Part shown: in pieces, positions 10,039 through 33,506 of the stretch
How the letters are laid out: every line of letters begins with the position of its first letter
Numbering within the stretch: the first letter of the stretch is position 1
Origin: Saccharothrix sp. NRRL B-16314
GTDB taxonomy: Bacteria; Actinomycetota; Actinomycetes; Mycobacteriales; Pseudonocardiaceae
Assembly: GCF_000716595.1 (NCBI RefSeq)
Contig: NZ_JNXC01000007.1
Location: 62,001 to 126,000, forward strand
Reading direction: 5' to 3'
Length of the DNA stretch: 64,000 nucleotides
Translations under genes and position numbers: made by a program
Notes under the pieces: generated by a model
Told to the model about the DNA's origin: nothing
Seen by the model: only the letters and a program-made list of their open reading frames with translations
The model's database searches: none

Positions 10039-10126
10039 GGGCACGGAGAGTAGCGCCAAGTTCGGTAGTGGGACGTTCAGGGATCGGCCCGTGCGCGTCC
10101 GCCCAGCAGGTGATTTGATCTTCGGT

Positions 10127-11282: not shown

Positions 11283-12242
11283 ATGAACCCCGGAGCCGTG
11301 ATCGACCAGGACCCCGGTGAACAGGAGTGGGCGGGGCTCACCCGGTCGGCCCGCAAGCGCGAGCTCTTCACCGAAGACCTGTACTTCCGGGAGGCGTGGG
11401 CCGACGCCCTGAGCGTCTTCGGGGACCGCACCACCGCCGTCATGGGTGAGTTGGCGCTGCTGAACTTCAAGTGCGACGGGTTGATCGGCCGGCGGATCGG
11501 CGCCACGCTCGACTTCCTGTCCGCCAACGGCTTCCAGGTCGTGGGCGTCGCGCCCATGCGGCACAACCGGCACTCCATGCGCGAGCTGTGGCGCTACAAC
11601 TGGCACGTCTACACGATCGACCGGCTCGCGCTGACCACCGTGATGCACGACGCCACCGACACCATGCTGCTGATCCTGCGCGACACCCGCTACGACGGCG
11701 TGGTGCCCGGATCGGTGCGCCTGGCGGACATGAAGGGCTCGGCGAACCCGGCGGGCCGCGACCCGAACAGCCTGCGTTCCGTGTTGCAGCCGCCCAACCG
11801 GGTCATCAACTTCGTGCACGTCGCCGACGAGCCCTCCGACATCGTCCGCGAGGTCGGCATCTTCCTCGACCGGGTGGAACGGCGTGAGCTGTTCGCCCAG
11901 ATCCGCGACCGGTTCACCACGGGCGCGGACGTCGAGGCCGCCGCCCTGCGCGCGAAGCTGGAAGCCCGGTACCCCGAGAACGACTTCGACATCGGCAAGG
12001 CGCTGCTGCGCGTCGAGCAGACCGAGTCGGTGAGCGCGGCGGACCTGGCCGAGCTCCGGGCCGCGATCGACGGGGGAGAACCGCTGAGCTGGGACCGGCT
12101 GCGGGCGATCTTCCCGCCGGACTCGCCGGTGGACCGGTGGGACTTCGTCATGATCGCGACCGAGACGATGGTCCCCGAGCGCACGGGCGTCGTCGACCTG
12201 CTCCCGGCCAGCAGCCGCGCGGAATGGGCCGGACCCGCCTGA
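11283..12242 (+). CDS. Nucleoside-diphosphate-kinase-like protein 1
   Basis: 319 aa, twice the size of ordinary NDPK (about 140). Residues 50-190 follow the NDPK plan: LALLNFKCDGLIGRRI replaces the xLIKPDxxxRxLxG opening, and SLRSVLQPPNRVINFVHVAD matches the TIRGDF...NxxHGSDS region, keeping the His that carries phosphate in NDPKs. The C-terminal 120 residues are helical and unrecognised. A paralogue of identical length lies at 26289-27248. ATG at 11283 has GGAAAGAGG upstream. Its stop codon is inside a 20-bp tandem duplication. Kinase activity is unproven because several active-site positions differ. Confidence 0.6.
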   Translation: MNPGAVIDQDPGEQEWAGLTRSARKRELFTEDLYFREAWADALSVFGDRTTAVMGELALLNFKCDGLIGRRIGATLDFLSANGFQVVGVAPMRHNRHSMRELWRYNWHVYTIDRLALTTVMHDATDTMLLILRDTRYDGVVPGSVRLADMKGSANPAGRDPNSLRSVLQPPNRVINFVHVADEPSDIVREVGIFLDRVERRELFAQIRDRFTTGADVEAAALRAKLEARYPENDFDIGKALLRVEQTESVSAADLAELRAAIDGGEPLSWDRLRAIFPPDSPVDRWDFVMIATETMVPERTGVVDLLPASSRAEWAGPA

Positions 12243-12262
12243 CGAGCGACAGGCCCGCCTGA

Positions 12263-12299
12263 GGAGCGACAGGGGAGCGGCGGTCAGACCTGTCGCTCC
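12263..12299. terminator. Convergent hairpin after NDPK-like gene 1
   Basis: GGAGCGACAGG pairs perfectly with CCTGTCGCTCC (11 bp). It overlaps the end of the leftward aminotransferase gene (stop at 12284). The left arm also occurs once more at 12244-12253 through a tandem duplication. Confidence 0.6.
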
Positions 12300-13384
12300 C
12301 CGGCGCACCGCGCTCGCAGCTCGGCCCACCGCGCGTCGGCGAGGGGCACGCTGATCCGCCCGACGTGCCGCAGCTCGCCCCGCCGGGCGGACCACGCCGG
12401 GTGCGCCTTGCCCTGGATTCCCAACGCCGCCAAGCGTTCCAACGCACCCTGCGGATCGGTGTACAGGAGGTAGGGCAGGAACTCGGCGGCCTGGAGGTCC
12501 GGCTCCACCCCGGCCGAGGCCAGCACGGCGTGCGCGTCCCGCTTGCGCGCCACCACGAGATCGCGCAACCGACTCGTCACGTCACCCAGGTCGAGCACTC
12601 GACGCCCGATCCGCAGCGACAGCGACGACGGGTGCAGCGGCGGCACCACCGACCGCACCGACTCGGTCAACGCCGCCGACGCGACGCAGTACCCGAGCCG
12701 CAGACCACCCAGCCCGTACGCCTTGGAGAGACCCCGGACCACGACGAGGTTCCGCACGACGTCCACGACGTTCACCGCGCTGTAGGCGGGCGGGTAGTAG
12801 TTCGCGTTGGACTCGTCCACCAGCACCACGGCACCGCGTTCCGCCGCGCCCTCGCACAACGCCACCACCCGGTCCAGGTCGGCGAAGTCGTCGCCGGTGA
12901 TGCCCGGCCGTTCGAGGAACAGCACCGCGGCATCGTGGTCGGCCGCGGCGCGCAGGTGCGGCGTCACGGGGTCCGCCGCGTCCCACTCGTCGGCGAACAC
13001 GCACCGCCCACCGGCCTTGTCCACCCAGAACGGGAAATCCGGGTAGATGTCGGACACCACGTGCACGCGTGGAGCCAGCGTGCTGAGGCAGTGCAGCAAC
13101 GGTCCGACGCCCGCGCCGACCGTCGTGCCCGCCGACCACCCGGCCCTGCCGAAGTGCCCGGCCACCGCAGGACCCAGCGCGGCTTCACCGTACGGGTCGC
13201 GCACCAGGTAGCTGTTGACGTACGGCAGCCCCGAGGCGACCTCGTCGGCGAGTTCCGCGGACACCACCGCCATGAGGTCGACGTCCAGCAGGTCCCGCTC
13301 GTCCTGCGTCCAGGCCAGGTTCAGCACGTCGGCGTCGTCGGCCAACGCACCCAGGCCCGCGTAGGACCCGATCGCCAACGGCAT
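12284..13384 (-). CDS. PLP-dependent aminotransferase, class I/II
   Basis: 366 aa, fold type I. The Schiff-base lysine is Lys221 in [19 protein letters not shown]. The Asp that binds the pyridine nitrogen is in [17 protein letters not shown]-phosphate residues lie near the N-terminal glycine-rich turn ([15 protein letters not shown]). Closest by motif to histidinol-phosphate/threonine-phosphate decarboxylase-like enzymes, but the substrate cannot be read. ATG at 13384 has GGGGGA seven bases upstream. Divergent from the ClpX-like gene with a clear palindrome between them. Confidence 0.85.
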
Positions 13385-13429
13385 GGATCCCCCAGGAGTC
13401 GAGCCGGCGATTCCTTCCCGATCGAACGT

Positions 13430-13450
13430 ACACGGGTCTTGTCCCCGTGT
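13430..13450. promoter_or_regulatory. Palindrome between aminotransferase and ClpX-like genes
   Basis: ACACGGG-N7-CCCGTGT is a perfect 7-7-7 inverted repeat in the 129-bp divergent intergenic region. The geometry equals that of the HspR element HAIR (CTTGAGT-N7-ACTCAAG) although the sequence differs. Likely operator for a dimeric regulator. Confidence 0.5.
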
Positions 13451-13513
13451 GGATCCGTCACGAGGATGGAAGCCGAGCCGAACGTGACGTGTTTCGGAGA
13501 ACGGGGGAATCCG

Positions 13514-14812
13514 GTGACGGTTGTCGCGGACACCGCGGAGTCGCAGACCTGTTCGTTCTGCGGCAAGGGCGAGGACCGGGTTGAACAGCTGGTCTCCGGA
13601 CCGGGGGTGCGCATCTGCGACGGCTGCGTGGACCTGTGCGCCGAGGCCATCGCCGAGGAACGGGCGGCGCCGCGAGGTGGCACCGACCGCGTGCTGCCGA
13701 AACCCCGTGAGCTCAGGGCTTTCCTGGACCAGTACGTGGTCGGCCAGGACCGGGCCAAGCGGTCCCTGTCGGTGGCGGTCTACAACCACTACAAGCGCAT
13801 CGCGCCCGCCGATCCGTCCGATCCCGACCGCGAGGTCGAGATCGCCAAGTCGAACATCCTGCTGCTCGGCTCCACCGGTTCGGGCAAGACGCTGCTCGCG
13901 CAGACCCTCGCCCGGATGCTGCACGTGCCGTTCGTCGTCGCGGACGCCACCGGGCTCACCGAGGCCGGGTACGTCGGCGAGGACGTGGACGGCATCCTGC
14001 TGAAGCTGTTGCAGGCCGCCGACTACGACGTGGCGCGGGCGCAGAACGGCATCGTCTACATCGACGAGATCGACAAGATCGCACGTCGGTCGAACGGCGG
14101 TTCCGCGGGCCGCGACGTGTCCGGCGAGGGCGTGCAGCAGGCGTTGCTGAAGGTGCTGGAAGGCGCTGTCATCCCCATCTCGCCGCAGGCCAAGGGCGGT
14201 GGCGCGCAGCCGGGTCGCAGCCGCAGCAACAACGACCAGATCAAACTGGACACCAGCGACATCCTGTTCATCGCGGCGGGCGCGTTCCCCGGGCTGGACA
14301 AGGTCGTGGCCGCACGCCTGGGCCGCAAGGGGATCGGCTTCGGCAGCAAGATGGACCCCGCCGCCACCGCCGACGCGGACGGCCTCCTGGACAACGTGCT
14401 GCCCGAGGACCTGGTGGAGTTCGGGATGATCTCGGAGTTCGTCGGCAGGCTCCCGGTGATCACCTCGACCCGCAAGCTGGACGAGGAATCCCTGCTGCGC
14501 GTGCTCACCGAGCCCAAGAACGCGCTCGTCCGGCAGTACCGCTGGCTGCTGCGCCGCGACGACGTCGACCTGGTCTTCGCCGACGACGCGCTGGCCGCCG
14601 TCGCGGGCCGCGCCATCGAGCGCGGCACCGGCGCGCGTGCCCTGCGGTCCATCCTGGAGGAGGCGCTGATGCCGGTCATGTACGACGTGCCGTCCATGGT
14701 CGAAGTGGCGTCCGTGCACGTCACCAAGGACACGATCCTGCACGGCGCGCTGCCGGAACTGCGCACTGCCGAAGGCGAAGCGGTGCCGTGGACGCAGGAG
14801 GTCGTCCGGTGA
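13514..14812 (+). CDS. ClpX-family AAA+ unfoldase (apparent paralogue)
   Basis: 432 aa. It has the zinc-binding domain (Cys13, 16, 35, 38), Walker A GSTGSGKT (119-126), Walker [10 protein letters not shown] (about 180-188), the pore loop GYVGED (152-157), the ClpP-docking GIGFG loop and sensor-2 GTGARALR. All parts needed to unfold substrates and dock on ClpP are present. Housekeeping actinobacterial clpX lies next to clpP1P2 and begins ARIGDGGDLLKCSFCGK; here there is no clpP and the N-terminus is divergent, so it looks like an extra copy. GTG at 13514 follows GGGGGAATCC; an ATG at 13466 is possible. It may serve the neighbouring pathway or protect against an inhibitor (inference). Confidence 0.85.
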
Positions 14813-14818
14813 GCGACG

Positions 14819-15112
14819 TCAGTCCTCCGGGCTGACGTCGAGCACGCGGTGCACGACCAGCTGGTGGACCAGGTCCGCGGTGTCCGCGATGGCCTGGTCC
14901 ACCGGCAGGTCGTAACGCACGGCAAGGCGTTCGCCCAACTGGTGGACGGTGCGCGCGCCGTCGATGTCGCGGAACACGAACTCGGCCAGCTCGTCCAGTT
15001 CGAACGCCTGGTCCGCGTTGGCCACCAGGAGACTGCCCCGGTACCGGCGCGCACGGCAGCCCAGTGCGCGACGCGGCACGGCCTCGGCCGCGAGCGGCAT
15101 CGGCAACGTCAT
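14819..15112 (-). CDS. PqqD-family peptide-binding (RRE) protein
   Basis: 97 aa. The sequence SLLVANADQAFELDELAEFV, then DGARTVHQLGERLAVRYDLP, is the winged-helix PqqD pattern that binds RiPP leader peptides (RiPP recognition element). C-terminal helix ADTADLVHQLVVHRVLDV. It overlaps the nucleotidyltransferase gene by four bases (ATGA). No radical SAM partner or other PqqD client enzyme is adjacent, which is unusual. It is convergent with the ClpX-like gene, six bases apart. Confidence 0.8.
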   Translation of the reverse strand: MTLPMPLAAEAVPRRALGCRARRYRGSLLVANADQAFELDELAEFVFRDIDGARTVHQLGERLAVRYDLPVDQAIADTADLVHQLVVHRVLDVSPED

Positions 15113-15978
15113 CGGATCTCCACCTCCAGCGACAGGTCGCGGCACAGGGTGAGCACCCGGTCCAGCCAGACCCGCGGCGCGGTGGGGTCGTAGTCCCGCA
15201 TGGTCTCCAGGTCCCAGTACTCCTGGAAGCTCAACTGGCGCGGCGCCGTCTCCAGGAACCGCTTGGCCCGCCACTTGGGGATGCGCGAGCCGAAGTTCCC
15301 GTGGCTCTCCAGCAACGCGTCCACGGCGTGGCCCAACGCCTTGCGCGCGGACAGCACGGCGCTGGTGAAGTCCTGCTCCTCGGCCTGGCCCAACGCGTCC
15401 TCGACGCTGGAGTCCGTTTCGGCCAGTGACGCGGTGACCAGGAAGGCCTGGAACGCCGACTCGGCCAGCGCGCGCCGCCGGTCCGCGACCCAGTCCGCGC
15501 CGCTGACCGGCACGCACGTGATCAACCGCTCCAGGAACAGCTCCTCGGTGTCCACCAACACCTTCGTCGACGACGTGCCGCGCTCGAACTGGTCCCAGGT
15601 GACCTTGGCCATCATCTGGTCGACCTGGGACACCGTCCAGTACTTGACCTCGCACCGGAAACCGGACACGGTCGCGGACCGGCTGGGCACCGCGTTCGGG
15701 CGCAGCGGGACCGGGAGCGTGCGGGAACTGCCGCCGCGCCAAGGAGATCCGGTGATCACGTAGAAGTCGTGGTCGCTGTTGGCGTTGGCCCAGCCCCGGG
15801 CCACCGAGCCGACGAGGCACACCGCCACGTGGTCACGGGGTACCAGACCGGACGCCGTCAGCGCTTCGAGCGCGATCGCCCTCACCGGCGCGCTTGCGGT
15901 TCCCCACACGCAGCCTCCCCCAGAATCGGCCGTCGGGAATTCGAGTTCACCAGCTAAGGTGGGCAGCGTCAAGACCAT
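15109..15978 (-). CDS. Nucleotidyltransferase-like protein (MNT fold) with helical C-terminus
   Basis: 289 aa. Near residue 55 it has VGSVARGWANANSDHDFYVI, the GSxxxGxxxxxSDxDxxV motif of pol-beta-type nucleotidyltransferases, with both metal-binding Asp. The C-terminal two thirds (AESAFQAFLVTASLAETDSS, then LSARKALGHAVDALLESHG) are helical and HEPN-like. Possible roles are nucleotidylation of a small molecule or peptide, or a toxin-antitoxin-type AMPylator. The operon with PqqD favours biosynthesis. ATG at 15978 begins the conserved part; no strong ribosome site is seen. Confidence 0.65.
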   Translation of the reverse strand: MVLTLPTLAGELEFPTADSGGGCVWGTASAPVRAIALEALTASGLVPRDHVAVCLVGSVARGWANANSDHDFYVITGSPWRGGSSRTLPVPLRPNAVPSRSATVSGFRCEVKYWTVSQVDQMMAKVTWDQFERGTSSTKVLVDTEELFLERLITCVPVSGADWVADRRRALAESAFQAFLVTASLAETDSSVEDALGQAEEQDFTSAVLSARKALGHAVDALLESHGNFGSRIPKWRAKRFLETAPRQLSFQEYWDLETMRDYDPTAPRVWLDRVLTLCRDLSLEVEIR

Positions 15979-16001
15979 GACAGGACAGTGGGGAGTCCCC
16001 G

Positions 16002-17723
16002 GTGGTCGAACACCTCGTCGCCCGTTTCCTCCGCTCGGTCGACACCGCAAGGACGATGGACGACCTCCGGCGGATTGCCGGTTTCGACCGGTACCAGGCA
16101 TCGCTCGGGCTCGAAAGGGCCGCACGGGTCGTGGCCGGAGCCGCGGTGGACGCCGGTCTGCAAAACGTTGCGGTGCACGGTTACCAGGCGGACGGCAAGG
16201 CGCAGTGGTGGACGTTCGAGGCTCCGGTTTCGTGGACCCCGCTCAGCGCGACGCTCAGGGTGGTCGGGGCCGGCGGTCCGGTCGTGGAGCTCGATCACGG
16301 GATTCACCCGTTTGCCGTGGCGACTTACTCCGCGTCCACCCCCGGCGGAGGTGTCACCGTGCCGTTGGTGCGAAGGGGTGGGGATCTCGACGGCGCGTTG
16401 GTCGTCGTGGACCGCGATGAGTACCGCGACGGTGCCCTGCTCGCCGAACTGGACGCCGGCGGAGCGCTCGGGTTCGTCACCGACGCCACCAACAAGGGCG
16501 ATGAACGTGGTCGCGTCGAACTGCCGACGACGAGCCGGCTGCTGGCGTTCAGCCTGACGCCCGCGGAGTTCGCCCGGGTTGCGGACCTCCGCGACGCGAC
16601 GGCCCGGGTCGAGGTCTCCGTGGACCGCACCGCCGGGATGCCCGTGGTGTCCGGGGTGCTGCCCGGTGACGGTGACGGGGAGGTCTGGCTCACCGCGCAC
16701 CTGTGCCACCCGCGGCCGAGTGCGAACGACAACGCCTCCGGTGTCGCCGCGCTCCTCGGTGCCGCCCGTGCACTTGCCGCCGTGCCGGGCAGGCGTGCCG
16801 CCGTGAGGTTCTTCTGGGGCCCCGAATTCGTGGGCACCGCCTCGATCCTGCACCGACGGCTGGCGGTCGAGGGCGGACCGCCCCCGATGGCGGTGATCAA
16901 CCTCGACATGGTCGGTGAGGACCAGGCGCTGTGCGCGTCGCCGTTCGTGGTGGAGCGGTCGCCGGACACGTTGCCTTCGCTGCTGACGCCGTTGGCGGAA
17001 CGGGTGGTGCACGAGGCTTTCGCCGCCACCGCCGACTCGCCCGGCACGTGGCAGTCCTCGCCGTTCCTGGGCTTCTCCGACCACGCGCTGTTCGTCGACC
17101 CGTCGGTCGGCAGCCCCGCGGTGCAGTTCTGCCACCCCGCCGACCGGTTCAACCACAGCGCCGCGGACACGATCGACAAGGTGTCGCCGGTCGAACTGAC
17201 CCGCGCCACCGCCGCTGCCGCCGCGCTGGCGCACCTCGTGGCCTCGGGCGGTCCCGGGCCGGACGAGCTGGGGCGGGTGCTGGACTGGTGGTGCGAGCGC
17301 GAGGTGGCGCGGGCGGAGGAAGTCGCTGCGGCGCAAGGGGGAGAGTGGGGCCGACGCCTGCGCGGGCACGTGGAGCGGGGCAACGCGCGGCTGCGTGCGC
17401 TGGCCGCCGGCGTCGACCCGGACCGGACGACGGCGGAGGACGATGAGCCGCCGGTCCGCGCGGCGTGGGACGGACCGTTGAACCTGCGGGCGATGATCGC
17501 CCACCTGCCCGAGGCGAGCAGGCACGCGCTCGGGAGCCTGATCGCCGCGGACAAGCACTGCCTCGCGGTCCTGTTCAACCTGGCGATCAGGGCGGACGGT
17601 CGGACAGGGCGGTCGGCGATCATCGAGGACACCTCGCTGGCCCTGGGCCGGCCGTTGGACGGGGTGGTGGCGGGCAGGTTGTTCGACGCGCTGGAGGAGT
17701 CCGGTTGGGTGGTTCGGGCCTGA
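16002..17723 (+). CDS. M28-type aminopeptidase with extra C-terminal domain
   Basis: 573 aa. The zinc-peptidase core shows HLCHPRPSANDNASG (residues 233-247), the acid in FFWGPEFVGT (Glu275), NLDMVGED, and HPADRFNHSAADTIDKV as the last ligand segment. This matches the DUF4910/M28 aminopeptidases often found in biosynthetic loci. After about residue 440 an added helical/winged region follows (NLRAMIAHLPEASRHALGSL), so it is longer than the usual 420 aa. GTG at 16002 follows GTGGGGAG. Divergent from the nucleotidyltransferase/PqqD pair with only 23 bp between starts. Confidence 0.8.
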   Translation: MVEHLVARFLRSVDTARTMDDLRRIAGFDRYQASLGLERAARVVAGAAVDAGLQNVAVHGYQADGKAQWWTFEAPVSWTPLSATLRVVGAGGPVVELDHGIHPFAVATYSASTPGGGVTVPLVRRGGDLDGALVVVDRDEYRDGALLAELDAGGALGFVTDATNKGDERGRVELPTTSRLLAFSLTPAEFARVADLRDATARVEVSVDRTAGMPVVSGVLPGDGDGEVWLTAHLCHPRPSANDNASGVAALLGAARALAAVPGRRAAVRFFWGPEFVGTASILHRRLAVEGGPPPMAVINLDMVGEDQALCASPFVVERSPDTLPSLLTPLAERVVHEAFAATADSPGTWQSSPFLGFSDHALFVDPSVGSPAVQFCHPADRFNHSAADTIDKVSPVELTRATAAAAALAHLVASGGPGPDELGRVLDWWCEREVARAEEVAAAQGGEWGRRLRGHVERGNARLRALAAGVDPDRTTAEDDEPPVRAAWDGPLNLRAMIAHLPEASRHALGSLIAADKHCLAVLFNLAIRADGRTGRSAIIEDTSLALGRPLDGVVAGRLFDALEESGWVVRA

Positions 17724-17927
17724 TTGGTCGGTTCCGGGAGTGTGGTGCCGGCGCTGGGTTCGGTGGTGGCGGCAGGCTGCCGGACTGGGTGGTGGTGGGT
17801 GAGCCGCTGGGCCGGGTGGGAGCGGGCGGTCCGCTGGTCGGGGTGGTGGCGGGTAGGCCGCCGGAACGGACGTGGCCTGGTGGGAGCGGGCGGGCTGCTG
17901 GACTTGGCGTGGCCGGCCGTTGGGCGT
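17724..17927. other. Convergent intergenic spacer with G-rich degenerate repeats
   Basis: About 200 bp between the ends of the M28 and amidase genes. GGTGGGAGCGGGCGG occurs twice (near 17816 and 17880) among GGTGGTG tracts. No gene and no clean hairpin terminator is visible. Confidence 0.5.
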
Positions 17928-19367
17928 TCAGCGAAGCGGGTCTCCGATGCCGAAACCCGGCGGGCGCACCGTCGGATGCCCCAGCGCGCGCTCCAGCGTC
18001 GCCGCGACCCGCAAGATCATCGCCTCGCCGAACGCGTGACCGACCAGCTGGAGCCCGGTCGGCAGACCGTTGCCCGCCAAGCCCGTCGGCAGCACCAGCG
18101 CGGGATGCCCGGTGACGTTGAACGGGATCGTCTGCATCGCGGTCGCCGTCTTGGGTGGTGGCCAGTCGCGGCCGAAGTCGGTGAACTTGGCGGCGGTGGT
18201 CAACCCGGCGGCGGTGAGCAGCACGTCGTGCCCGTCGAGCACCTGCTGCACCTGCTCCGCCAACTCCCGGCGCAACCGCAGCGCCTGCACGAAGTCCGCC
18301 GCGGTCAGCCCCGCGCCCGGCGCGACGCGGTGGTACGTGTACCGACCGAACAACTGCGGGCGCTCGCGCAGGTCACGCTCGTGGATGGCGAACGCCTCCG
18401 CCGTCATGATCACCCGCCCGCAGGCGTTGAACAGCTCGAACGGCGGCAGCTCCACCTCCTCCACCACCGCACCCGACGAGCGCAGCACCGCCACCGCGCG
18501 CTCGATCCCCGCCAGCACTTCCGGTGACGTGACCGCGTCGGCGGCGAACATGCCGGGGGAGTAGGCGACCCGCAGCCCCCGCACCCCCGACCCCAACTCC
18601 GCGTCGAACGGCGGCACGGCCCGGTCGACGCTGCTCGGGTCCCCCGGGTCGTGCCCGGCGATCACCCGCATGGCCAGCGCCGCGTCCTGCACGGTCCAGG
18701 CCAGCGGTCCGCAGTGGTCCATCGAGTACGACAGCGGGAACACCCCGCGCCGCGACACCAACCCGTACGTCGGCTTCAACCCCACCGTGCCGCAGTGGTA
18801 CGCGGGCCCGCGCACGGAACCGCTGGTGTCCGAACCGATCGCCACGCGGACGAACCCCGCGGCCACCGCCGCACCCGCCCCGGACGACGACGCGCCGGTG
18901 AAGTGGTCGAGGTTCCACGGGTTGCGCGCGGGCGGGAACGGCAGTTCGGGGCTCGGGCCGCCGAGCGCGAACTCGTGGGTGGCCAGCTTGCCCACCATCA
19001 CCCCGCCGCCGGCCAGCAGCCGCTCCTGCACGCCGCAGTCCCTCGCGGGCACGTGGTCGACGGTCAGCCACGAGTGGTTCGTGGTGCGGATGCCCTCGGT
19101 GTCGAACACATCCTTCAACGCGTACGGGATGCCGTGCAGCGGGCCGCGGTCGACGCCTGCGGCAAGTTCCCGGTCCGCCTGCTGCGCGCGCTCCAACGCG
19201 TGCTCGTCCGTCACCGTCACGAACGCGCGGACGTCACCGTCGTGCCTGGCGATCCGGTCCAGCGCGTTGCGGGTAAGGTCCACCGAAGACACCTGGCGCG
19301 CCCGCAGCAACGCCCCCGCCTCGGCGACCGACAGCGCGTGCAGCTCGGTCGTGGTCGTCCCGGTCAC
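17928..19367 (-). CDS. Amidase-signature hydrolase (AtzE/GatA-like)
   Basis: 479 aa. The amidase-signature triad is readable: Lys85 (PYALKDVFD), the cis-Ser in TGASSSGAGAA (about 161) and nucleophile Ser184 in GSDTSGSVRGPA. Enzymes of this family hydrolyse amides or carbamates, or act in amidotransferases. The small gene upstream resembles AtzG, the GatC-like partner of AtzE (1-carboxybiuret hydrolase), so the two likely form one enzyme. Last gene of the seven-gene leftward operon that begins with the 70-aa peptide; GTG start overlaps the upstream stop. Confidence 0.88.
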   Translation of the reverse strand: MTGTTTTELHALSVAEAGALLRARQVSSVDLTRNALDRIARHDGDVRAFVTVTDEHALERAQQADRELAAGVDRGPLHGIPYALKDVFDTEGIRTTNHSWLTVDHVPARDCGVQERLLAGGGVMVGKLATHEFALGGPSPELPFPPARNPWNLDHFTGASSSGAGAAVAAGFVRVAIGSDTSGSVRGPAYHCGTVGLKPTYGLVSRRGVFPLSYSMDHCGPLAWTVQDAALAMRVIAGHDPGDPSSVDRAVPPFDAELGSGVRGLRVAYSPGMFAADAVTSPEVLAGIERAVAVLRSSGAVVEEVELPPFELFNACGRVIMTAEAFAIHERDLRERPQLFGRYTYHRVAPGAGLTAADFVQALRLRRELAEQVQQVLDGHDVLLTAAGLTTAAKFTDFGRDWPPPKTATAMQTIPFNVTGHPALVLPTGLAGNGLPTGLQLVGHAFGEAMILRVAATLERALGHPTVRPPGFGIGDPLR

Positions 19368-19549
19368 CCGACCTCCCCCTCCGGCACCCGGAACACGGCG
19401 GCGGGCTCGCTCATCGCCGACCGCGGCCCACGCAGCAGCTCCACCATCCGCAACAACTCCCGGTAGCCGACCGCGGTGCCCGCCCGCAGGTCTTCCGGCA
19501 CCTCCAGCCCACCCCGGCGCAGCGCCGCCTCGACCTCGTCATCCCACAT
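19364..19549 (-). CDS. AtzG-like small amidase subunit
   Basis: 61 aa. A helical body (YRELLRMVELLRG) and the C-terminal SEPAAVFRVPEGE resemble the EPAPVFRP end of AtzG/DUF4089 proteins, which clamp their amidase partner as GatC does GatA. It is immediately upstream of the amidase with a 4-base overlap, and its ATG lies one base after the LLM gene stop. Too short to be an enzyme itself. Confidence 0.6.
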   Translation of the reverse strand: MWDDEVEAALRRGGLEVPEDLRAGTAVGYRELLRMVELLRGPRSAMSEPAAVFRVPEGEVG

Positions 19550-19550
19550 T

Positions 19551-20885
19551 TCAGACCACCTCCCGACGCTCGGGCCGCGGCAGACCGAGGTGGTCCCGCA
19601 GGGTCGTGCCCTCGTAGCCCTCGCGCACCAGGCCACGCCGGCGCAGCTCGGGCACCACGTGGTCGACGAAGTCGGTCAGCCCGTCGGGCAGCTGCGGCGC
19701 CATCACGATGTAGCCGTCCGCGGCCTCCTCGCGCACCCACTCCTCCAGGTGGTCGGCGACCTGCTCCGGCGTGCCCAGCACCTGGTGGTGCCCGCGCGAC
19801 CCGGCGACCCGCAGCGCGAGTTGCCGGATCGTCAGCCCTTCGGCCCGCGCCACGTCCGCCAGCAGCTCCTGCCGCGACCGGCCCGCGTTCGACGGGGGCA
19901 GCGGCGGCAGCGGGCCGTCCAGCGGGTGCCCGCCGAGGTCGACGCCGCCCAGCTCGCTGCCCAGCAGCGACACCGCGATGTCCGGGTCGATCAACTCCTG
20001 GAGCCGCTCGTACTTCGCCACCGCCGCCTGCTCGGTGTCGCCGACGAAGGGCGACACGCCGACCAGGACGCGCACGTCGTCCGGGTCACGGCCGAACTTG
20101 GCCGCCCGCGCCTTCACGTCGGCGTAGAAGGCCTGCGCCGACGGCAGTGACTGCTGCGCGGTGAACACCACGTCCGCCGCCCGTGCCGCCAGGTTCCGAC
20201 CCGGATCGGACGACCCCGCCTGGATGGTCACCGGGTGCCCCTGCGGCGACCTGGGCAGGTTCAGCGGCCCGCGCACGGTGAAGTGCTCGCCGCTGTGGTC
20301 CAGCACGTCCACGCCGCCCGGGTCGAAGAACCGGCCGGACGCCTTGTCCCGCAGGAACGCGTCGTCCGCCCAGCTGTCCCACAGGCCCTTCACCACGTCC
20401 GCGAACTCCTCGGCCCGCGCGTACCGCTCGTCGTGGTTCTGCTGGGCGGCGAACCCGAAGTTCAGCGCCTCCTGCGGGTTCTGCGACGTGACCAGGTTCC
20501 AGCCCGCACGTCCCGCGCTCATGTGGTCGAGCGAGGCGACCACCCGCGCCACGCTGTACGGGTGGTTGTACGTGGACGACAGGGTCGCGGTCAGCCCGAT
20601 CCGCTCGGTCACCGCCGCCAGCGCGCCCAGCAGCGTCATCGGCTCGAACTGCGCCACGTACCGGATCGCGGCACGGCTGAGCGCGTCCAGGTCGGTACCG
20701 CGCACGCCGGCGCTGTCGGGCAGGAACAGGAAGTCGAAGCCGCCGCGCTCGGCGGTGCGGGCGAGGTCGGCGTAGTGCCGGAGGTTCACCCCGGCGTCGG
20801 CGGGCACGTCCGGGTGCCGCCACGCCGCGAGATGGTACCCCGTCGGGTACAGGAACGCGCCCAGTGCCACGTGCTTTCGCGTCAT
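19551..20885 (-). CDS. LLM-class flavin-dependent monooxygenase (NtaA/SnaA/DszA family)
   Basis: 444 aa. A full TIM-barrel LLM protein of the long NtaA type: HVALGAFLYPTGYHLAAWR start, NLRHYADLARTAERGGFDFL, TLSSTYNHPYSVARVVASLD, then GRAGWNLVTSQNPQEALNFG, the flavin/phosphate segment diagnostic of the family. These enzymes use FMNH2 delivered by a separate reductase to hydroxylate or cleave C-N and C-S bonds. No flavin reductase lies nearby, unless the FAD/NAD(P) protein upstream serves. Start overlaps the upstream stop (TGATG). Confidence 0.9.
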   Translation of the reverse strand: MTRKHVALGAFLYPTGYHLAAWRHPDVPADAGVNLRHYADLARTAERGGFDFLFLPDSAGVRGTDLDALSRAAIRYVAQFEPMTLLGALAAVTERIGLTATLSSTYNHPYSVARVVASLDHMSAGRAGWNLVTSQNPQEALNFGFAAQQNHDERYARAEEFADVVKGLWDSWADDAFLRDKASGRFFDPGGVDVLDHSGEHFTVRGPLNLPRSPQGHPVTIQAGSSDPGRNLAARAADVVFTAQQSLPSAQAFYADVKARAAKFGRDPDDVRVLVGVSPFVGDTEQAAVAKYERLQELIDPDIAVSLLGSELGGVDLGGHPLDGPLPPLPPSNAGRSRQELLADVARAEGLTIRQLALRVAGSRGHHQVLGTPEQVADHLEEWVREEAADGYIVMAPQLPDGLTDFVDHVVPELRRRGLVREGYEGTTLRDHLGLPRPERREVV

Positions 20886-21961
20886 CGGGTTCCTCCAGCG
20901 GCGGTCCGGTCGGGCTCCCACACCGTGAACGGCGTCAGCACCTCGTCGTCGGCGTCCGACCCGTGGTCGTGGGTGTAGGCGGGATCGGTCAGGAACAGCT
21001 CGCCGTCCGCGACCAGGCTCACCGGGCCGATCCGGTTCCTGGCGAGCGAACCCGGCGGCAGCAGCAGGTCGGAGTCCACCACCCGGATCGACGGTGGCAG
21101 CGAGCGCCTCAGGTCGCGGACGAGCGGGTCGACGGCCGTGCAGTACAGCCACCGCACCCGGCCGGCGCCGCCCATGCGCGCACCGTGGCGGGCGAGCAGG
21201 TCGTCCAGCAGCGCTTGGAGGACCGGGTCGTGGCGGGTGGGCACCAGGCCGTGGTCGGAGTGCGCGACCACCACCGTGCCGGCGTCGGCGAGCCGTCGTG
21301 CCAGTGCGCCCAGGCCGTCGAGGGCGGCCGACACGTGGTCGTCGTAGCCGTGGTGGTGCACGTGCCGGTCCAGCTCGACGAAGCACCAGACGAACCGGGG
21401 ACCGTCGCGCCCCAACGCTTCCTCGATCGCCGTGTCGACGTCGGCGACGACGGTGGCCGGATCGCGCGGTCGGTACGGGCCGCCGCCGAGGGTGTAGAAG
21501 CGGTGCCCGGGAACGATCTCCGCGTGGCGCAGCAGCGCGTCCCGCCAGGCGCACGGGTAGGCGTCCAGGTCGGCCGGCACGGCCAGCGGCCGGTAGCCGC
21601 GGTCCGCCGCGTCGCTGAACACGGTGCCGTCCGCGGCGGTCAGCCGGTCGCCCCGGTAGTCGAACGCGTTGATCAACGCGTCGGAGCCGTCCGGGTCCGC
21701 GAACACCACGCCGGGCACGCCGTGGTCGCCCGGCGCGAGCCCGGTCAGGCTGCTCAGCCAGGCCGCGGACGACGTGGTCGGCAGCACCGATGCCAGCGGC
21801 TCGGTCACCGCGTCGGGCCAGCGGCGCTCCACCAGCCGGTGCGGCAGACCGTCGACGGCCAGCACGACCACGTCACGCGGGTGGGACCGCTCAAGCAGGG
21901 CGGCTACCCGGCCCCGGAACGAGGTGATCGACGCCGTGCGACCCGGCGCGAGGGCGGTCAC
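20882..21961 (-). CDS. Alkaline-phosphatase-superfamily phosphodiesterase/nucleotide pyrophosphatase
   Basis: 359 aa. Metal and nucleophile motifs of type I phosphodiesterases are present: VVVLAVDGLPH (first Asp), LPTTSSAAWLSSLTG (Thr nucleophile) and VVAHSDHGLVPTRHD (Asp-His pair). No signal peptide, so it is cytoplasmic. In an operon with a PP-loop adenylating enzyme it could hydrolyse a nucleotide or phosphodiester intermediate (inference). GTG start overlaps the FAD-gene stop by four bases. Confidence 0.85.
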   Translation of the reverse strand: MTALAPGRTASITSFRGRVAALLERSHPRDVVVLAVDGLPHRLVERRWPDAVTEPLASVLPTTSSAAWLSSLTGLAPGDHGVPGVVFADPDGSDALINAFDYRGDRLTAADGTVFSDAADRGYRPLAVPADLDAYPCAWRDALLRHAEIVPGHRFYTLGGGPYRPRDPATVVADVDTAIEEALGRDGPRFVWCFVELDRHVHHHGYDDHVSAALDGLGALARRLADAGTVVVAHSDHGLVPTRHDPVLQALLDDLLARHGARMGGAGRVRWLYCTAVDPLVRDLRRSLPPSIRVVDSDLLLPPGSLARNRIGPVSLVADGELFLTDPAYTHDHGSDADDEVLTPFTVWEPDRTAAGGTR

Positions 21962-23943
21962 CGGCGCACGCTCCGCGCGACGGCCCGAACGGCCCACGCC
22001 GCCGCGTTGTTCAGCACCGCGCTGTTGGACCCGGGCCGTGCCGCGGTGAGCTGGAAGACCCGCAGCCCTTCCGCCGGCGCGCCCAGGAACGTCAACGCGT
22101 CCTCCACCGACCCGTCCGGCAGCACGGGGTGGAACTCGTCGGTCAGGTCGAGCGCGCCGGGCACGTGGTCCGCGCTCCCGTCGGCCGACGGGTTGCGCCA
22201 CTGGCGTGCCAGACCGCGTCGCAACAGGTTCCGGTAGAGCGGGGACGCGTCGTGCCACGGGTCGAACGGGTGCACCCGCGCCTCGACCGCGACCTCGACG
22301 GTGCGCGCCACGCCCGTGCGGCGGCCTTCGACCAGCAACCCGGTGCCGTGCGCGCGGACCACCGGGTCCGGCCCGATCGCCAGGTCCACCAGCCCCGCGT
22401 CCACCAGTGCCGACAGCTTGCGCATCGGCTCGACCCCGGCGCCGTTGGACAGCCGGTTGTAGTGCCGCAGGTGCACTTCGGTGAAGCGGCGGTGCGACTC
22501 GGGGGTGAGGCCGCCGTCGTCCACGGCGGCCGAGAACACCGCTCGCAGATCGCGCCACACCCCGTCGCACGCGGCCTTCACCGGGTTGGCGACGTTGCCC
22601 TCCAAGCAGTCGGCGAGATCCCGCGCCAGGCGCGTCCGGACCAGGTCGTGCCAGTCGACGCCGGGTTGTGCCAGGTGCGCGGGCAGCGGGTCCAGCGCCG
22701 CGCGCCAGTCGAAGTCCCCGGCCTGCGCGGCGTGCAGCAGGAGGTCCGCGCCCTCTTCGCCTTGGGCGAGGGAGCCGGACAGGAAGCGCTGGTAGGCGTC
22801 GTCCACCCGGTCCCGCAGCTCACGGCCTGCCTGCTCGCCGTGCTTCGTGCGGTGGTGCACGTACGCCATCTCCAGCACGACGAGCGGCAGCAGGTGCAGG
22901 TCGAAGTCCAGCCGTGGACGCCGACCGCGCGGGTCCGGGAAACCGCAGGACAGCCGCAGCCGGTCGATCGCCGGTTCGGTGAAGAACACGCCGCGGTGTT
23001 CGAGCGCGGGGTCGGCCAGCTTGTCGTTGCGGGGCCGGCCGCTGCCCGGCACACCGCTCGGGCTGATCCCGACGATCCGCGACGGCTCCCGGCCGCTGGG
23101 CACGTACCGCAGCAGCGCCGGGTCGTCGGGCGACGGCGTGAATTGGCCGCCGCGCCCCTCGGTGAGGTGCAGGACTACGTCCAGCGCGGTCAGCCCCAGC
23201 CCTCGAACCAGGACCGGCCTGCCCGGCGGCACGGACCGCTCGGTGACCCTGACGTCCAGCGGGTAGGCGTACGGCACCCAGCGCGGGTCGTCGGTGTCCG
23301 AGCCGGGGTAGTGGTTCCACGAGTGGCCGGTGGCGAACAGGACGTCGTCGGCGGGCACGGCCACCGCCGGGTCGTCGGTCCGCAGCAGGAACCGGTGGCC
23401 GTCGTGGTCGCCGGGCACCACGTCGACCACCGCGCACGCGTGCAGGTCCACCTCGACACCGGGCGTCGAGCGCAGCCGCCGCACGAACCGGTCGAACACG
23501 TCCCGCAGCGCCAGTCCGTGCACGTAACGCCGGGGCACGTCCTCCGGCCGCACGTCGAAGTCCGGGTCACCGGTCTCCGCGTGCCGCGCCCGGCACCACT
23601 GGAGGAACGTCGGCCGCAGCGCCGGCGGCAGCAGCCGCACCGGTGGCCGCGCCGACTCGTCCGGCGCGAACGCGATCTGCCCCGCCACCCGGTTCAGGTG
23701 GCTGGTCCTGGGCTGCCGGTCGCTGTGCACCTCGCCCGCGCCGAACCTGCCGCCGCCCTCGAAGACCACCACGCGCACACCGCCGGCGGGCGTCTCGTGC
23801 GGCAGTTCGGCGGCCAGCTGCGCCAGCGCGTACGTGCCCATCGGACCCGCGCCGACGATCGCCAGGACGCGCCGGCGCTCTCCGCCGGTGGCGCCGACGG
23901 CGGACGGTTGCCCGCCGTCGGCCTTCGTGGTCCCGAGGGTCAC
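21958..23943 (-). CDS. FAD/NAD(P)-binding protein (NAD_binding_9 type)
   Basis: 661 aa. N-terminal dinucleotide fold VLAIVGAGPMGTYALAQL (about residues 27-44). The following FGAGEVHSDRQPRTSHLNRV segment and DDVLFATGHSWNHYPG are characteristic of the large FAD-NAD(P)-binding family (PF13454) found in secondary-metabolite loci. The C-terminal half (EPMRKLSALVDAGLVDLAIG, then LNNAAAWAVRAVARS) belongs to the same family. A redox role on a tethered or free intermediate is likely; the reaction is unknown. GTGA overlap with the PP-loop gene. Confidence 0.8.
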   Translation of the reverse strand: MTLGTTKADGGQPSAVGATGGERRRVLAIVGAGPMGTYALAQLAAELPHETPAGGVRVVVFEGGGRFGAGEVHSDRQPRTSHLNRVAGQIAFAPDESARPPVRLLPPALRPTFLQWCRARHAETGDPDFDVRPEDVPRRYVHGLALRDVFDRFVRRLRSTPGVEVDLHACAVVDVVPGDHDGHRFLLRTDDPAVAVPADDVLFATGHSWNHYPGSDTDDPRWVPYAYPLDVRVTERSVPPGRPVLVRGLGLTALDVVLHLTEGRGGQFTPSPDDPALLRYVPSGREPSRIVGISPSGVPGSGRPRNDKLADPALEHRGVFFTEPAIDRLRLSCGFPDPRGRRPRLDFDLHLLPLVVLEMAYVHHRTKHGEQAGRELRDRVDDAYQRFLSGSLAQGEEGADLLLHAAQAGDFDWRAALDPLPAHLAQPGVDWHDLVRTRLARDLADCLEGNVANPVKAACDGVWRDLRAVFSAAVDDGGLTPESHRRFTEVHLRHYNRLSNGAGVEPMRKLSALVDAGLVDLAIGPDPVVRAHGTGLLVEGRRTGVARTVEVAVEARVHPFDPWHDASPLYRNLLRRGLARQWRNPSADGSADHVPGALDLTDEFHPVLPDGSVEDALTFLGAPAEGLRVFQLTAARPGSNSAVLNNAAAWAVRAVARSVRR

Positions 23944-25166
23944 GTCGTGGGCACCGCGTCGCTGAGCATCTTGCGGAACCGGCGCAGCAGCGGGAACGGC
24001 ACGCTGCGCTCGACGTGGAACCCGAGCTCCTCGTGGAACGTGTACTCCACCGGCTCCTTCAGGCTCAGCGCGGACATCCCGCGCGCCAGCTGCTCCAGGT
24101 AGCCGGGGAACTGCGACTGCATCGCGTAGACCACGCTGTAGTACAGGTTGCGCCCCAACGAGAAGCACGGGTAGCGCGCGTCGTAGTTCTCCAGCGAGTA
24201 CTTGGGGAAGCAGCCGTCGATGATCCGCTTGGGGCACATCCACAGCGGCAGCACCAGCGTCACGTCGCCGATGGGGCGCACCGGGAAACCGGCGGGCTTC
24301 ATGCCGTTGGACACCCGGAACAGGTTCTCGCAGACGATGTCCTCGAGGTTCACGCCGGTGCAGATGTACGGCGTGCCGAGGTCGCGGGCCGCCTTCGACA
24401 GGGCGAGCCGGATCAGCAGGGTGCCCAGGAACTCGAAGTCGTCACCCTGGAACTCGCGCTCGAACCGGTCGATCAGCGCCACCGAGTCGCGCGGGATGCC
24501 CAGCAGCTCCTTGACCTCGTCCGCCTCGATCACGCGCAGCGGCAGCCCGTACTTCTCGCACAGCGCCTGCGCCCGCGGCACGCCCGCGTCCCAGTCCGGG
24601 ATGCCCTTGAGGATCACCGGGTGCACCGTGACGCCGTGGTCGGTGAGCTGGCTCAGGCCGTAGAGCAGCGCGTTGCTGTCCCCGCCGCCGCTGACGCCCA
24701 CCACGATGTCCGCGCCCGCCGGCACGTGCGCCCTGATCGTCTCGCCGACCCGGTCGGCGATGATCGACTGGCACTCCTCGGGGCTGAGCTTCTTCAGGAA
24801 CGCCTCGGCCGACCCCTGCTCGTTGTCCATCCGCTGGTAGACGTACTCGGTCGCGCCCGCACCCTCGCTGTCGATCGTGGCGAAGTCGTCGATCGAGAAC
24901 AGGAACGGGTTGACGTTCCGGTTGAAGTAGAGCAGCACCTCCGCCGCGTCCTCGAAGTCCTCCAGCCGCTGGTCCAGGCACGGCGTCAGGCGCGGCTCAC
25001 CGCCGGAGGCGGGCAGCACGTACACCGCGACGGCCGACCACGGCACGTTGTTCCGGTTCAGGATGTCGATCAACCGCTCGTCGCTGGATCCGGTCAGTCG
25101 TTGGCGGCCGTGGGAGGTCACGACCGACACCGTGGGGACGCTGCGGAAGGTGGGGTTCGTCGGCAT
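23940..25166 (-). CDS. PP-loop ATP pyrophosphatase with beta-grasp-like N-terminal region
   Basis: 408 aa. The N-type ATP-pyrophosphatase P-loop, GVSGGGDSNALL (SGGxDS at 159-164), is preceded by about 90 residues (TVSVVTSHGRQRLTGSSDER...AEVLLYFNRNVNPF) resembling a beta-grasp domain. The second half has clustered Cys (PLWMCPKRIIDGCFPK and YPCFSLGRN), as in thiolating TtcA/TilS relatives. Such enzymes adenylate a carbonyl or amide and add a nitrogen or sulfur nucleophile. It follows the peptide gene and hairpin directly, so the peptide is a possible substrate (inference). The ATG at 25166 has AGGAA upstream; a TTG two codons earlier is possible. Confidence 0.75.
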   Translation of the reverse strand: MPTNPTFRSVPTVSVVTSHGRQRLTGSSDERLIDILNRNNVPWSAVAVYVLPASGGEPRLTPCLDQRLEDFEDAAEVLLYFNRNVNPFLFSIDDFATIDSEGAGATEYVYQRMDNEQGSAEAFLKKLSPEECQSIIADRVGETIRAHVPAGADIVVGVSGGGDSNALLYGLSQLTDHGVTVHPVILKGIPDWDAGVPRAQALCEKYGLPLRVIEADEVKELLGIPRDSVALIDRFEREFQGDDFEFLGTLLIRLALSKAARDLGTPYICTGVNLEDIVCENLFRVSNGMKPAGFPVRPIGDVTLVLPLWMCPKRIIDGCFPKYSLENYDARYPCFSLGRNLYYSVVYAMQSQFPGYLEQLARGMSALSLKEPVEYTFHEELGFHVERSVPFPLLRRFRKMLSDAVPTT

Positions 25167-25203
25167 GGTCAATTCCTGTTCGGCCGTCGGGACGAGTAGT
25201 GAA

Positions 25204-25233
25204 CGGGCGGGCCGCCCGGAGACGGCCCGCCCG
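25204..25233 (-). terminator. Hairpin between peptide gene and PP-loop gene
   Basis: CGGGCGGGCCG pairs perfectly with CGGCCCGCCCG (11 bp, 8-base loop), nine bases after the peptide stop codon. A leaky terminator here would give more peptide transcript than enzyme transcript, as in many bacteriocin operons. Confidence 0.65.
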
Positions 25234-25241
25234 CCGGGGAA

Positions 25242-25454
25242 CTACTGGGCGCCGGTCTCGCAGCTGGCGCCGCAGATCGTCTCCAGGCCGTGCTTGGAGG
25301 CCGGGACGGACAGCCCCGCCACCCGGAACGACTCCAGCTCACGGACGCTCATGACGACGCGCTCGGCGACGCCACCCGTCGGGATGAGCTGGACAACCTC
25401 GTTCTTGAGGTTGAAGTTGCCACTCTGAATGGCAGGAGAAAATGCGTGCTGCAT
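25242..25454 (-). CDS. Putative ribosomal precursor peptide, 70 aa, C-terminal Cys-x3-Cys
   Basis: 70 aa starting MQHAFSPAIQSGNFNLKNEV and ending LETICGASCETGAQ. The first 50 residues (VQLIPTGGVAERVVMSVREL) would be a leader; the last part holds the only two Cys, three bases-of-codon apart as C-G-A-S-C, plus Ser and Thr. ATG at 25454 has AGGGAGCAG upstream and a strong promoter. It is the first gene of a seven-gene coupled operon and is followed by a hairpin. It matches no peptide family I recognise; the precursor assignment rests on size, position and composition. Confidence 0.6.
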   Translation of the reverse strand: MQHAFSPAIQSGNFNLKNEVVQLIPTGGVAERVVMSVRELESFRVAGLSVPASKHGLETICGASCETGAQ

Positions 25455-25501
25455 GTCTCTGCTCCCTTATTCAAGGCGGGCGTAAGGTCCCCGCGATGGT
25501 C

Positions 25502-25532
25502 AGCCTACAATCGCTTCGACTCGTCCTGTCAA
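25502..25532 (-). promoter_or_regulatory. Promoter of the precursor-peptide operon
   Basis: On the minus strand TTGACA (25532-25527), 17 bases, then TGTAGG (25509-25504, extended TGTAGGCT). This is a perfect consensus -35 with an acceptable -10, giving a 5' leader of about 45 bases ahead of the ATG at 25454. Confidence 0.65.
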
Positions 25533-25559
25533 GCATTGCGAGGCTGATTCGAGGAGACT

Positions 25560-25614
25560 TTGTCTCACGTGGATCGGTGTTTTTATTCGAATTCTTCGAA
25601 TGTTGTCTCACGTG
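25560..25614. promoter_or_regulatory. Direct repeats flanking a palindrome upstream of the peptide promoter
   Basis: TTGTCTCACGTG occurs perfectly twice (25560-25571 and 25603-25614). Between them, at 25585-25601, lies the perfect inverted repeat ATTCGAA-TTC-TTCGAAT. The array is 28 bases upstream of the -35 box, and its right part overlaps the end of the transposase-like gene. It looks like a multi-site activator or repressor region. Confidence 0.6.
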
Positions 25615-26083: not shown

Positions 26084-26288
26084 GGGGGCCAACCACTCGT
26101 ATTTTGACCGCACCTCGACATGATGCGCGGAACTGTGGACAATGTCACGGGTCGTTGTCCGGCGACGCGCTGTTAGGATTGCGACCGGCCGACAGCGGAA
26201 GCCGCCGACATCGCACTACCCGGCATTGGGCGACTCCGGCTTCGGACAACTCCGGCAAATGGACCACGCGCCTTGGGGGCCCGCCAAC

Positions 26289-27248
26289 GTGAACACTCTC
26301 CCGTCGTTGACCCGGCTGCCGCTGAAGGCGGAGTTGTACCAGCGCGAAACGTACTTCCGGGAGGGGTTCAGCGACGCGGTCGAATCCTTCGGGCCCGCGG
26401 TCGGCGAACTGCTGCACCGGTCCGCCCTGCTGATGGTGAAGCCGGACGGGCTGGTCGCGGCCAAGCTCCGCACCGTCGTGGAGTACCTGGGCGAGCACGA
26501 CTTCGAGATCGTCGCCGCGCAGCCGATGTCGTTCACCCCGCACAGCTGGCGCGAGCTGTGGCGCTACCAGCTCACGTCCGCCACCCTCGACCGGCTCAAG
26601 GTCAACGAGCACGTCCTGTCCCGTCCCGCGCTGCTGCTCCTGCTGCGCAGCGGCGAGGGCCACGAGGTGCCCGGCACCGTGCGCCTCAGCGGCCTCAAGG
26701 GCTCGGCCACGCTGTCCGCTCAGCGCCCCGGAACCCTGCGCAGCCTCCTCGGCCAGCCGAACCGGGTGCTGAGCTTCATCCACGTCGCCGACGAGCCCGC
26801 CGACCTGGTCCGCGAACTCGGCCTGCTCTGCGACCGCGCGACCCGGCTGCGGCTGCTGACGGCGCTCGCGGAGGGCCGCCTGTCCGCCGAAGGCCGTGCG
26901 GTGCTGGACGAAGAGCTGCGCCGCTGCGACGAGGGCGGCCTCGACCTGTCGCCGGAACCGGCGGTCGAGCGGGTGGCCAGGGCCGTGCGCGAGTGCCCGC
27001 AGGCCGACGACCCGGCCGCCGGCTGGCTGCTGGAGCAGCTCGCGGCGATGTCCCGGGGCGAGCGCGTGGCGTGGCGCCCGTTCGTCCGCGAGCTCGAACG
27101 CCTCGACCTGGAGCTGGACCACTGGGACCTGGCCGTGCTGGGCACCCACTTCATCACCTACGACGAGCCGGGGTGGGCCAAGGTGCTGGAGAACCCGCCG
27201 CCCGGTGCGTGGTCGACGCCGATGGCGGGCTCCGACCACCGCTCGTGA
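26289..27248 (+). CDS. Nucleoside-diphosphate-kinase-like protein 2
   Basis: 319 aa from GTG 26289 (ATG at 26259 is possible), the same length as the paralogue at 11283. The NDPK core is closer to canonical here: SALLMVKPDGLVAAKL at about residue 37, ELWRYQLTSATLDRL, then TLRSLLGQPNRVLSFIHVAD with the phospho-acceptor-equivalent His. The C-terminal 130 residues (EGRLSAEGRAVLDEEL...DLELDHWDLAVLGTHF) are specific to this pair. The two copies bracket the 12-26 kb gene block. Phosphotransfer to a non-standard acceptor is possible; activity unproven. Confidence 0.6.
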   Translation: MNTLPSLTRLPLKAELYQRETYFREGFSDAVESFGPAVGELLHRSALLMVKPDGLVAAKLRTVVEYLGEHDFEIVAAQPMSFTPHSWRELWRYQLTSATLDRLKVNEHVLSRPALLLLLRSGEGHEVPGTVRLSGLKGSATLSAQRPGTLRSLLGQPNRVLSFIHVADEPADLVRELGLLCDRATRLRLLTALAEGRLSAEGRAVLDEELRRCDEGGLDLSPEPAVERVARAVRECPQADDPAAGWLLEQLAAMSRGERVAWRPFVRELERLDLELDHWDLAVLGTHFITYDEPGWAKVLENPPPGAWSTPMAGSDHRS

Positions 27249-27257
27249 ACGCCTCCC

Positions 27258-28737
<1,480 letters not shown>

Positions 28738-33499: not shown

Positions 33500-33506
33500 G
33501 GTGCGG

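Follow-up and report, generated by a model that had tools for sequence, protein, structure and literature searches.

In the microcin C system (MccB/MccF) a peptide is adenylated at its C-terminus, and in the pathways to pyrroloquinoline quinone (PQQ) and mycofactocin a short, highly conserved peptide gives rise to a small product. Scaffold pathways with peptide aminoacyl-tRNA ligases (PEARLs), such as that to 3-thiaglutamate, combine a peptide with small-molecule enzymes and a protease, and TtuA and NcsA thiolate tRNA with a ubiquitin-like sulphur carrier. The present analysis concerns an operon of Saccharothrix sp. NRRL B-16314, located in a 64,000-nt stretch of contig NZ_JNXC01000007.1 (the window, to which all coordinates refer), in which the gene for a 70-residue peptide precedes that for a PP-loop ATPase. 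Judging from gene content and sequence, the cluster around these two genes probably makes a peptide-derived natural product, as one type of a larger, undescribed class resembling the ribosomally synthesized and post-translationally modified peptides (RiPPs), in which the C-terminal region of the peptide would be adenylated.

The window enzyme and PesC-type enzymes presumably both belong to the PP-loop superfamily. PesC of the nitrilobacillin pathway and other asparagine-synthetase-like RiPP enzymes use ATP to adenylate a ribosomal precursor at its C-terminus (PMC13060819). The likeness lies in C-terminal adenylation of a ribosomal precursor, here proposed and predicted from genes, while the window enzyme differs in belonging to a TtuA/NcsA/TilS-like branch with a ubiquitin-like domain, and has other precursors and other partner enzymes. 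With TtuA/TtuB and NcsA it shares the catalytic fold, but it has no Fe-S CxxC motif, its domains are fused, it has no GlyGly tail, and a peptide gene adjoins it. PQQ and mycofactocin clusters are resembled in the short conserved peptide and, in some clusters, a PqqD-family protein; however, no radical SAM (S-adenosylmethionine) enzyme occurs among the window cluster genes scanned, a PP-loop enzyme being present instead, and there are several tail types. PEARL pathways likewise have a peptide, small-molecule enzymes and a protease, as does the window cluster, but no PEARL/LanB gene is found among its scanned genes. Microcin C is resembled in the proposed C-terminal adenylation and in an S66 peptidase of the LD-carboxypeptidase family (10115–11176, plus strand; Pfam E 6.9e-25), which directly adjoins the cluster and which we take to be kin of MccF; in contrast to microcin C, there is no ThiF-like enzyme among the genes scanned, and none of the other loci examined has a counterpart of the S66 gene. 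By titles and the starts of abstracts, none of the matches listed in open-licence PubMed Central ties a PP-loop enzyme of the window type to a RiPP, and the type appears not to have been linked previously to peptide natural products.

Peptide and PP-loop genes in related loci

The comparison covers 45 loci (the window, L002–L029, L067–L071, L095–L104 and L106), with PP-loop identities down to 26%. Contig ends truncate two of them, L014 and L027, which leaves 43 testable loci. L072 and L093 repeat L029 and L070 and were left out, while L112, on a Pantoea plasmid, was found via its peptide and stands outside the count. Where loci belonged to the same genome they were combined, but solely to score presence or absence (L002 and L051 are two contigs). 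The PP-loop gene of L101 and the histidyl-tRNA synthetase (HisRS) gene of L100 each span two frames, so that 44 PP-loop sequences are readable. A candidate peptide gene lies near the PP-loop gene in 42 of the 43 testable loci, and in 40 it is backed by similarity, at a limit also passed by one unrelated frame, in L022 (E 0.032). At the level of sequence, what the locus types have in common is a candidate peptide of ∼46–79 residues, mostly ending in [ST]xxx[LIVM]E-x12, with a PP-loop enzyme encoded nearby.

Five types can be distinguished by their other genes. Type I, that of the window, comprises 20 loci, with the peptide in 19 and one cut at a contig end. Type II has a cytochrome P450 and a TauD-like enzyme (peptide in seven of eight loci, the other again cut). 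The five type III loci (L067, L068, L069, L100, L101) are three-gene cassettes of a peptide ending [SP]ALTAH[FYLI], found in all five, the PP-loop enzyme and a HisRS-like protein. Type IV has an M28 peptidase, an aminotransferase and a protein like nucleoside diphosphate kinase (NDK), and its three peptides, from four loci, end TTCTDCVPN[YF]; in type V, with methyltransferase and TIM-barrel neighbours, the peptide is present in three of three. In each of five further loci there is a single candidate; three of these resemble type I peptides (best E 0.001–0.014) and two are placed by position. In L026 and L029 a carbamoyltransferase-family gene comes after the type II cassette.

Homologues of the PP-loop enzyme are sparse, occurring in 2 of 397 genomes of the order (the window's and G215), 6 of 394 of the class and 13 of 394 of the Streptomyces family, centre genomes included. 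Among 266 gammaproteobacterial genomes the search gave only the centre genome, and the three positives among 315 of the genus Streptomyces were all already known. Phages, and E. coli genomes queried with the peptide/PP-loop stretch of Pantoea, added nothing.

The candidates also share a regularity of spacing. The motif [ST]xxx[LIVM]E stands exactly 12 residues before the C-terminus in 38 of the 42 candidate peptides, versus 4 of 5,885 other small frames from the same loci, and when distances of 5 to 20 were scanned for [LIVM]E, 38 candidates fell at 12, one at 15 and none elsewhere. The same rule is obeyed by all of the best 120 of 152 type I homologues, and by 48 of the 49 additional proteins that a mixed profile brought in, a set that is not independent. 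The residues following the motif vary from type to type while the spacing is kept. The candidates thus present a conserved recognition segment with a defined end, from which type IV and L021 deviate. The spacing is read as a register that would place the C-terminus in the active site, with the tail as the putative core.

Searching ∼5.8 billion proteins with the window peptide gave 153 scored candidates and 152 homologues, the best 120 of which were aligned (the protein searches comprise the best 120 of 341, of 152 for the peptide, and of 285 matches). In these 120 an F-x-L-K motif is conserved (F in 119, L in 117, K in 118), and there is hardly any variation in the terminal stretch ASK(H)GLE-x-I-C/T-GASCETGAQ. 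The second cysteine is present in all 120, the first in 107, with threonine in the other 13, and the final glutamine in 114. The earlier note had pointed to CxxxC, but this is not the hallmark; given the threonine, only the second cysteine is invariant, and the unifying feature is instead [ST]xxx[LIVM]E-x12-COOH. Over the last 21 codons, eight pairwise comparisons involving the window copy give proportions of non-synonymous differences (pN) of 0.06–0.13 against 0.23–0.64 for synonymous ones (pS), which indicates that the frame is translated and its C-terminal end constrained. As the front of the peptide has diverged, the corresponding rate ratio (dN/dS) for the full length lies between 0.22 and 0.94. 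With 152 homologues and pN far below pS in these codons, the peptide is far beyond chance, and the suspicion that it might be some unrelated known small protein is not borne out, as no Pfam or NCBIfam model matches it.

The PP-loop enzyme is predicted to have a TtuA/NcsA-like catalytic fold (these being its best fold matches) joined to an N-terminal ubiquitin-like domain, whose matches include TtuB. This β-grasp domain has no C-terminal GlyGly and runs into RNxNPF. The [4Fe-4S] CxxC ligand positions align to F244..L247, and neither is a cysteine in any of 45 sequences. C203 is a cysteine in 43 of 45, and the aligned residue of NcsA is also a cysteine, outside its CxxC; C319 is absent from the type IV and V enzymes. 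Pfam detects no asparagine-synthase domain, only ATP_bind_3 below cut-off (E 0.0034). In the PP-loop tree, types II, III, IV and V are clades (support 0.990, 1.000, 1.000 and 1.000), while the type I sequences do not form a single one. The type IV enzymes (L070, L071, L102, L103) have a C-terminal CxxC...CxxC ribbon-like stretch.

Gene content of the window cluster

All seven frames of the proposed minus-strand operon were recovered where they had been placed (Table 1). The peptide gene runs from an ATG at 25454 to a stop at 25242, and its product ends ...ETICGASCETGAQ. Four of the junctions are 4-nt overlaps, the LLM (luciferase-like monooxygenase) and AtzG-like frames are separated by 1 nt, and peptide and PP-loop genes by 75 nt. 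A consensus promoter had also been claimed, and is borne out only in part. A perfect TTGACA does precede the start codon of the peptide gene, by 78 nt, but the closest −10 element, TAGGCT after a 19-nt spacer, matches TATAAT at only 3 of 6 positions, and a consensus promoter scan lists no site upstream of the peptide gene. The 61-residue AtzG-like frame, so named for its position before the amidase, has no Pfam or NCBIfam match, and is found again beside the amidase in related loci.

Table 1. Features of the type I cluster in the window (PLP, pyridoxal phosphate; FAD, flavin adenine dinucleotide).
Feature	Position	Strand	Evidence
NDK-like protein 1, extra C-terminal part	11283..12242	+	Pfam NDK E 8.4e-5, below cut-off
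PLP aminotransferase class I/II-like	12284..13384	-	
Second ClpX-like ATPase	13466..14812	+	genome's other ClpX 55.7% identical
PqqD family protein, possible RiPP recognition element	14819..15112	-	Pfam E 2.7e-9
Nucleotidyltransferase-like protein	15109..15909	-	NTP_transf_2 match below cut-off
M28/DUF4910 zinc peptidase-like protein	16002..17723	+	Pfam; in 19/20 type I loci
Amidase, AtzE/GatA-like	17928..19367	-	Amidase E 5.1e-99
AtzG-like small protein, 61 aa, precedes amidase	19364..19549	-	named by position
LLM flavin monooxygenase, NtaA/DmoA subfamily	19551..20885	-	Bac_luciferase E 4.7e-57; NCBIfam
Type I phosphodiesterase / alkaline-phosphatase-superfamily protein	20882..21961	-	Pfam Phosphodiest E 8.8e-11
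FAD/NAD(P)-binding protein, NAD_binding_9	21958..23943	-	Pfam E 3.4e-24
PP-loop ATPase, TtuA/NcsA-like fold (98-408), N-terminal ubiquitin-like beta-grasp domain	23940..25166	-	
Precursor-like peptide, type I, 70 aa, F-x-L-K leader motif	25242..25454	-	homologue search, alignment
12-residue C-terminal tail TICGASCETGAQ, proposed core	25245..25280	-	alignment, purifying selection, motif count
SKHGLE, [ST]xxx[LIVM]E motif, 12 residues from C-terminus	25281..25298	-	motif count
NDK-like protein 2	26259..27248	+	Pfam NDK E 5.2e-7
Second enolase, catalytic motifs intact	27457..28737	+	PF00113 E 8.9e-126

The limits drawn in the earlier note prove too narrow, since the operon is only half of the cluster; conserved genes extend from ∼11283 to 28737, about fifteen in all. 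This extent was obtained by clustering frames over 28 related loci together with gene matching. Because the gene caller misread frames in some high-GC loci, presence was judged from protein searches covering all six reading frames; flank lengths differ between loci, and absences in short flanks are not real absences. Across the 20 type I loci, the aminotransferase and the FAD protein occur in 15 each, the NDK-like protein in 13, the phosphodiesterase in 12, the enolase in 10, LLM in 8, ClpX in 6 and a PhyH-like dioxygenase in 4. Since LLM and the PhyH-like enzyme never occur in the same locus, it is as if they replace each other. The statement that no standard RiPP class enzyme is present holds for the window cluster genes scanned with Pfam (no lanthipeptide, YcaO, radical SAM, lasso or ATP-grasp enzyme), and one type I relative, L017, does have an ATP-grasp protein. 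On a Pantoea agglomerans plasmid the cluster takes a compact form, with peptide and PP-loop genes annotated as hypothetical and with phosphoenolpyruvate (PEP)-binding and thymidylate-kinase-like proteins. Type I clusters are also seen in two Candidatus Burkholderia/Paraburkholderia symbiont genomes (L011, L014), which we assume to be of leaf-nodule origin.

In the window genome, enolase and ClpX are each present in two copies. Its cluster enolase is 60% identical to the housekeeping one, and a comparison of eight cluster enolases (from Actinomycetes, Myxococcus, Lysobacteraceae and Alphaproteobacteria) gives mutual identities of 64–92%, with intact catalytic motifs. The type III HisRS is likewise an extra copy in the three genomes checked (G497, G716, G632). 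Identity to the cassette enzyme of G497 is 77% for that of G716 and 70% for that of G632, but only 37–38% for the other HisRS in each of the three genomes; a short HisRS fragment, 62% identical, is also present in G497.

Transposase fragments at 25583–26113 (DUF4096) and 28908–29309 (DDE_Tnp_1), both on the minus strand, bracket the segment with the second NDK-like protein and the enolase, and in L005 a DUF4096 frame adjoins the peptide gene as well. Elsewhere in the window, 31473–36805 (minus strand) encodes consecutively an ABC (ATP-binding cassette) transporter ATPase, an NTP_transf_5-type nucleotidyltransferase and two M16 peptidases, and may be a further small cluster for peptide processing. 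A siderophore-like region at 44811–61167 (plus strand) has a 4,624-residue nonribosomal peptide synthetase, an ornithine/lysine N-monooxygenase and a periplasmic binding protein, and is accompanied by an ABC transporter pair at 41253–44674.

Proposed pathway and alternative explanations

The ubiquitin-like domain, together with PqqD in clusters that have it, would be the docking site for the upstream part of the peptide, and [ST]xxx[LIVM]E would set the register so that the C-terminal end enters the ATP site. A carbonyl at the peptide end, most likely the C-terminal carboxylate, would be adenylated and then transferred to a nucleophile other than sulphur. Elaboration of the type I tail, by oxidative and phosphoryl or nucleotidyl chemistry, would fall to the FAD enzyme, LLM (or PhyH), the aminotransferase, the NDK-like proteins, the nucleotidyltransferase and the phosphodiesterase, after which the M28 peptidase and amidase would trim it and release a small product. 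The enolase, and HisRS in type III, would be target copies for self-protection or else pathway enzymes.

The peptide-pathway reading of the earlier note thus stands in that a peptide regularly accompanies the PP-loop gene, but not as to the extent of the cluster or the hallmark; the hydrolysis of a nucleotide or amide bond that it envisaged is a hypothetical step. Several observations weigh against the proposed pathway. Homologous operons lacking a peptide gene would count heavily, and there is a single case, the type IV locus L071, where a peptide was looked for and none detected; the candidates in L021 and L024 are supported by position alone. The three type IV peptides carry IAK or IVK in place of LE, L021 has LN, and the motif was defined on the same peptides on which it was counted. 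A protease site, or the length of the product, would explain the fixed tail just as well. In some type I loci 2–9 kb separate the peptide gene from the PP-loop gene, with the two on opposite strands in L005 and L010, and an in-cluster PqqD occurs in only four of nine genomes searched.

A PP-loop protein of this ancestry might be a sulphurtransferase that thiolates the peptide (as thioamide, thiocarboxylate or cysteine persulphide), as its relatives TtuA and NcsA do with tRNA, and the fold matches, the TtuB match of the N-terminal domain, the near-constant C203 and the invariant cysteine of type I tails all fit this. However, the ligand positions of the Fe-S cluster are never cysteine, C319 is gone from two types, C203 may be a residue of the fold in view of its counterpart in NcsA, and the β-grasp domain does not end in GlyGly, making thiolation improbable. 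Somewhat better placed, though still rather unlikely, is the idea of a reusable scaffold of the PqqA/PEARL kind, on whose C-terminus a small molecule is built and then cut off, leaving little or no tail in the product. The type I tail is almost invariable across phyla, unlike a variable RiPP core, and the many small-molecule enzymes and occasional PqqD would suit a scaffold; yet tails differ between types at a kept distance, as expected of a core, and LanB/PEARL-like genes are missing from the scanned cluster. LLM enzymes of the NtaA/DmoA subfamily and AtzE-like amidases are typical of catabolism, and an operon of that kind headed by an unrelated small protein could account for their presence. 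It is very improbable here, as peptide and PP-loop genes also pair where no LLM or amidase is found (types II, III and V) and the PP-loop gene is sporadic. Adenylation of the peptide C-terminus remains the favoured reading.

The extra enolase and HisRS copies may confer self-resistance. The chances are about even that they and ClpX are instead pathway enzymes or hitch-hikers, for example with enolase supplying PEP for phosphoryl chemistry. Two Pantoea clusters, in line with this, carry PEP-binding and thymidylate-kinase-like proteins, and enolase and NDK-like genes were not found in one (L009) and are not annotated in the other (L112). Accessory enolases also occur without the PP-loop gene: besides the window's, 8 of 200 genomes of the order have enolases 69–86% identical to the cluster enolase, five of them (G083, G150, G118, G090, G076) without a PP-loop match, and in Actinokineospora one lies outside its cluster. 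The cluster therefore draws on a wider clade of accessory enolases, and the idea of enolase self-resistance is weakened. Against a mere pathway role, the cluster enolases retain their catalytic motifs, the HisRS of L069 keeps both HisRS domains, and HisRS is the sole gene besides peptide and PP-loop genes common to all five type III loci. A bolder proposal, which we regard as speculative and on balance doubtful, is a new RiPP class of target-specific antimetabolites, in which the PP-loop enzyme activates C-termini with 12-residue tails and cassette types carry a resistant copy of the enzyme attacked (enolase and ClpX in type I, HisRS in type III).

If the adenylation reading is right, there would be a class of ribosomal peptide products with a single shared, easily searched enzyme, and, with a simple rule that most precursors obey, genomes of Actinomycetes, Myxococcota, Proteobacteria and other groups could be used to predict the products. 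With only three genes, the type III cassette is small enough for direct testing. Two cluster types would then link their products to enolase and HisRS, both conserved bacterial enzymes.

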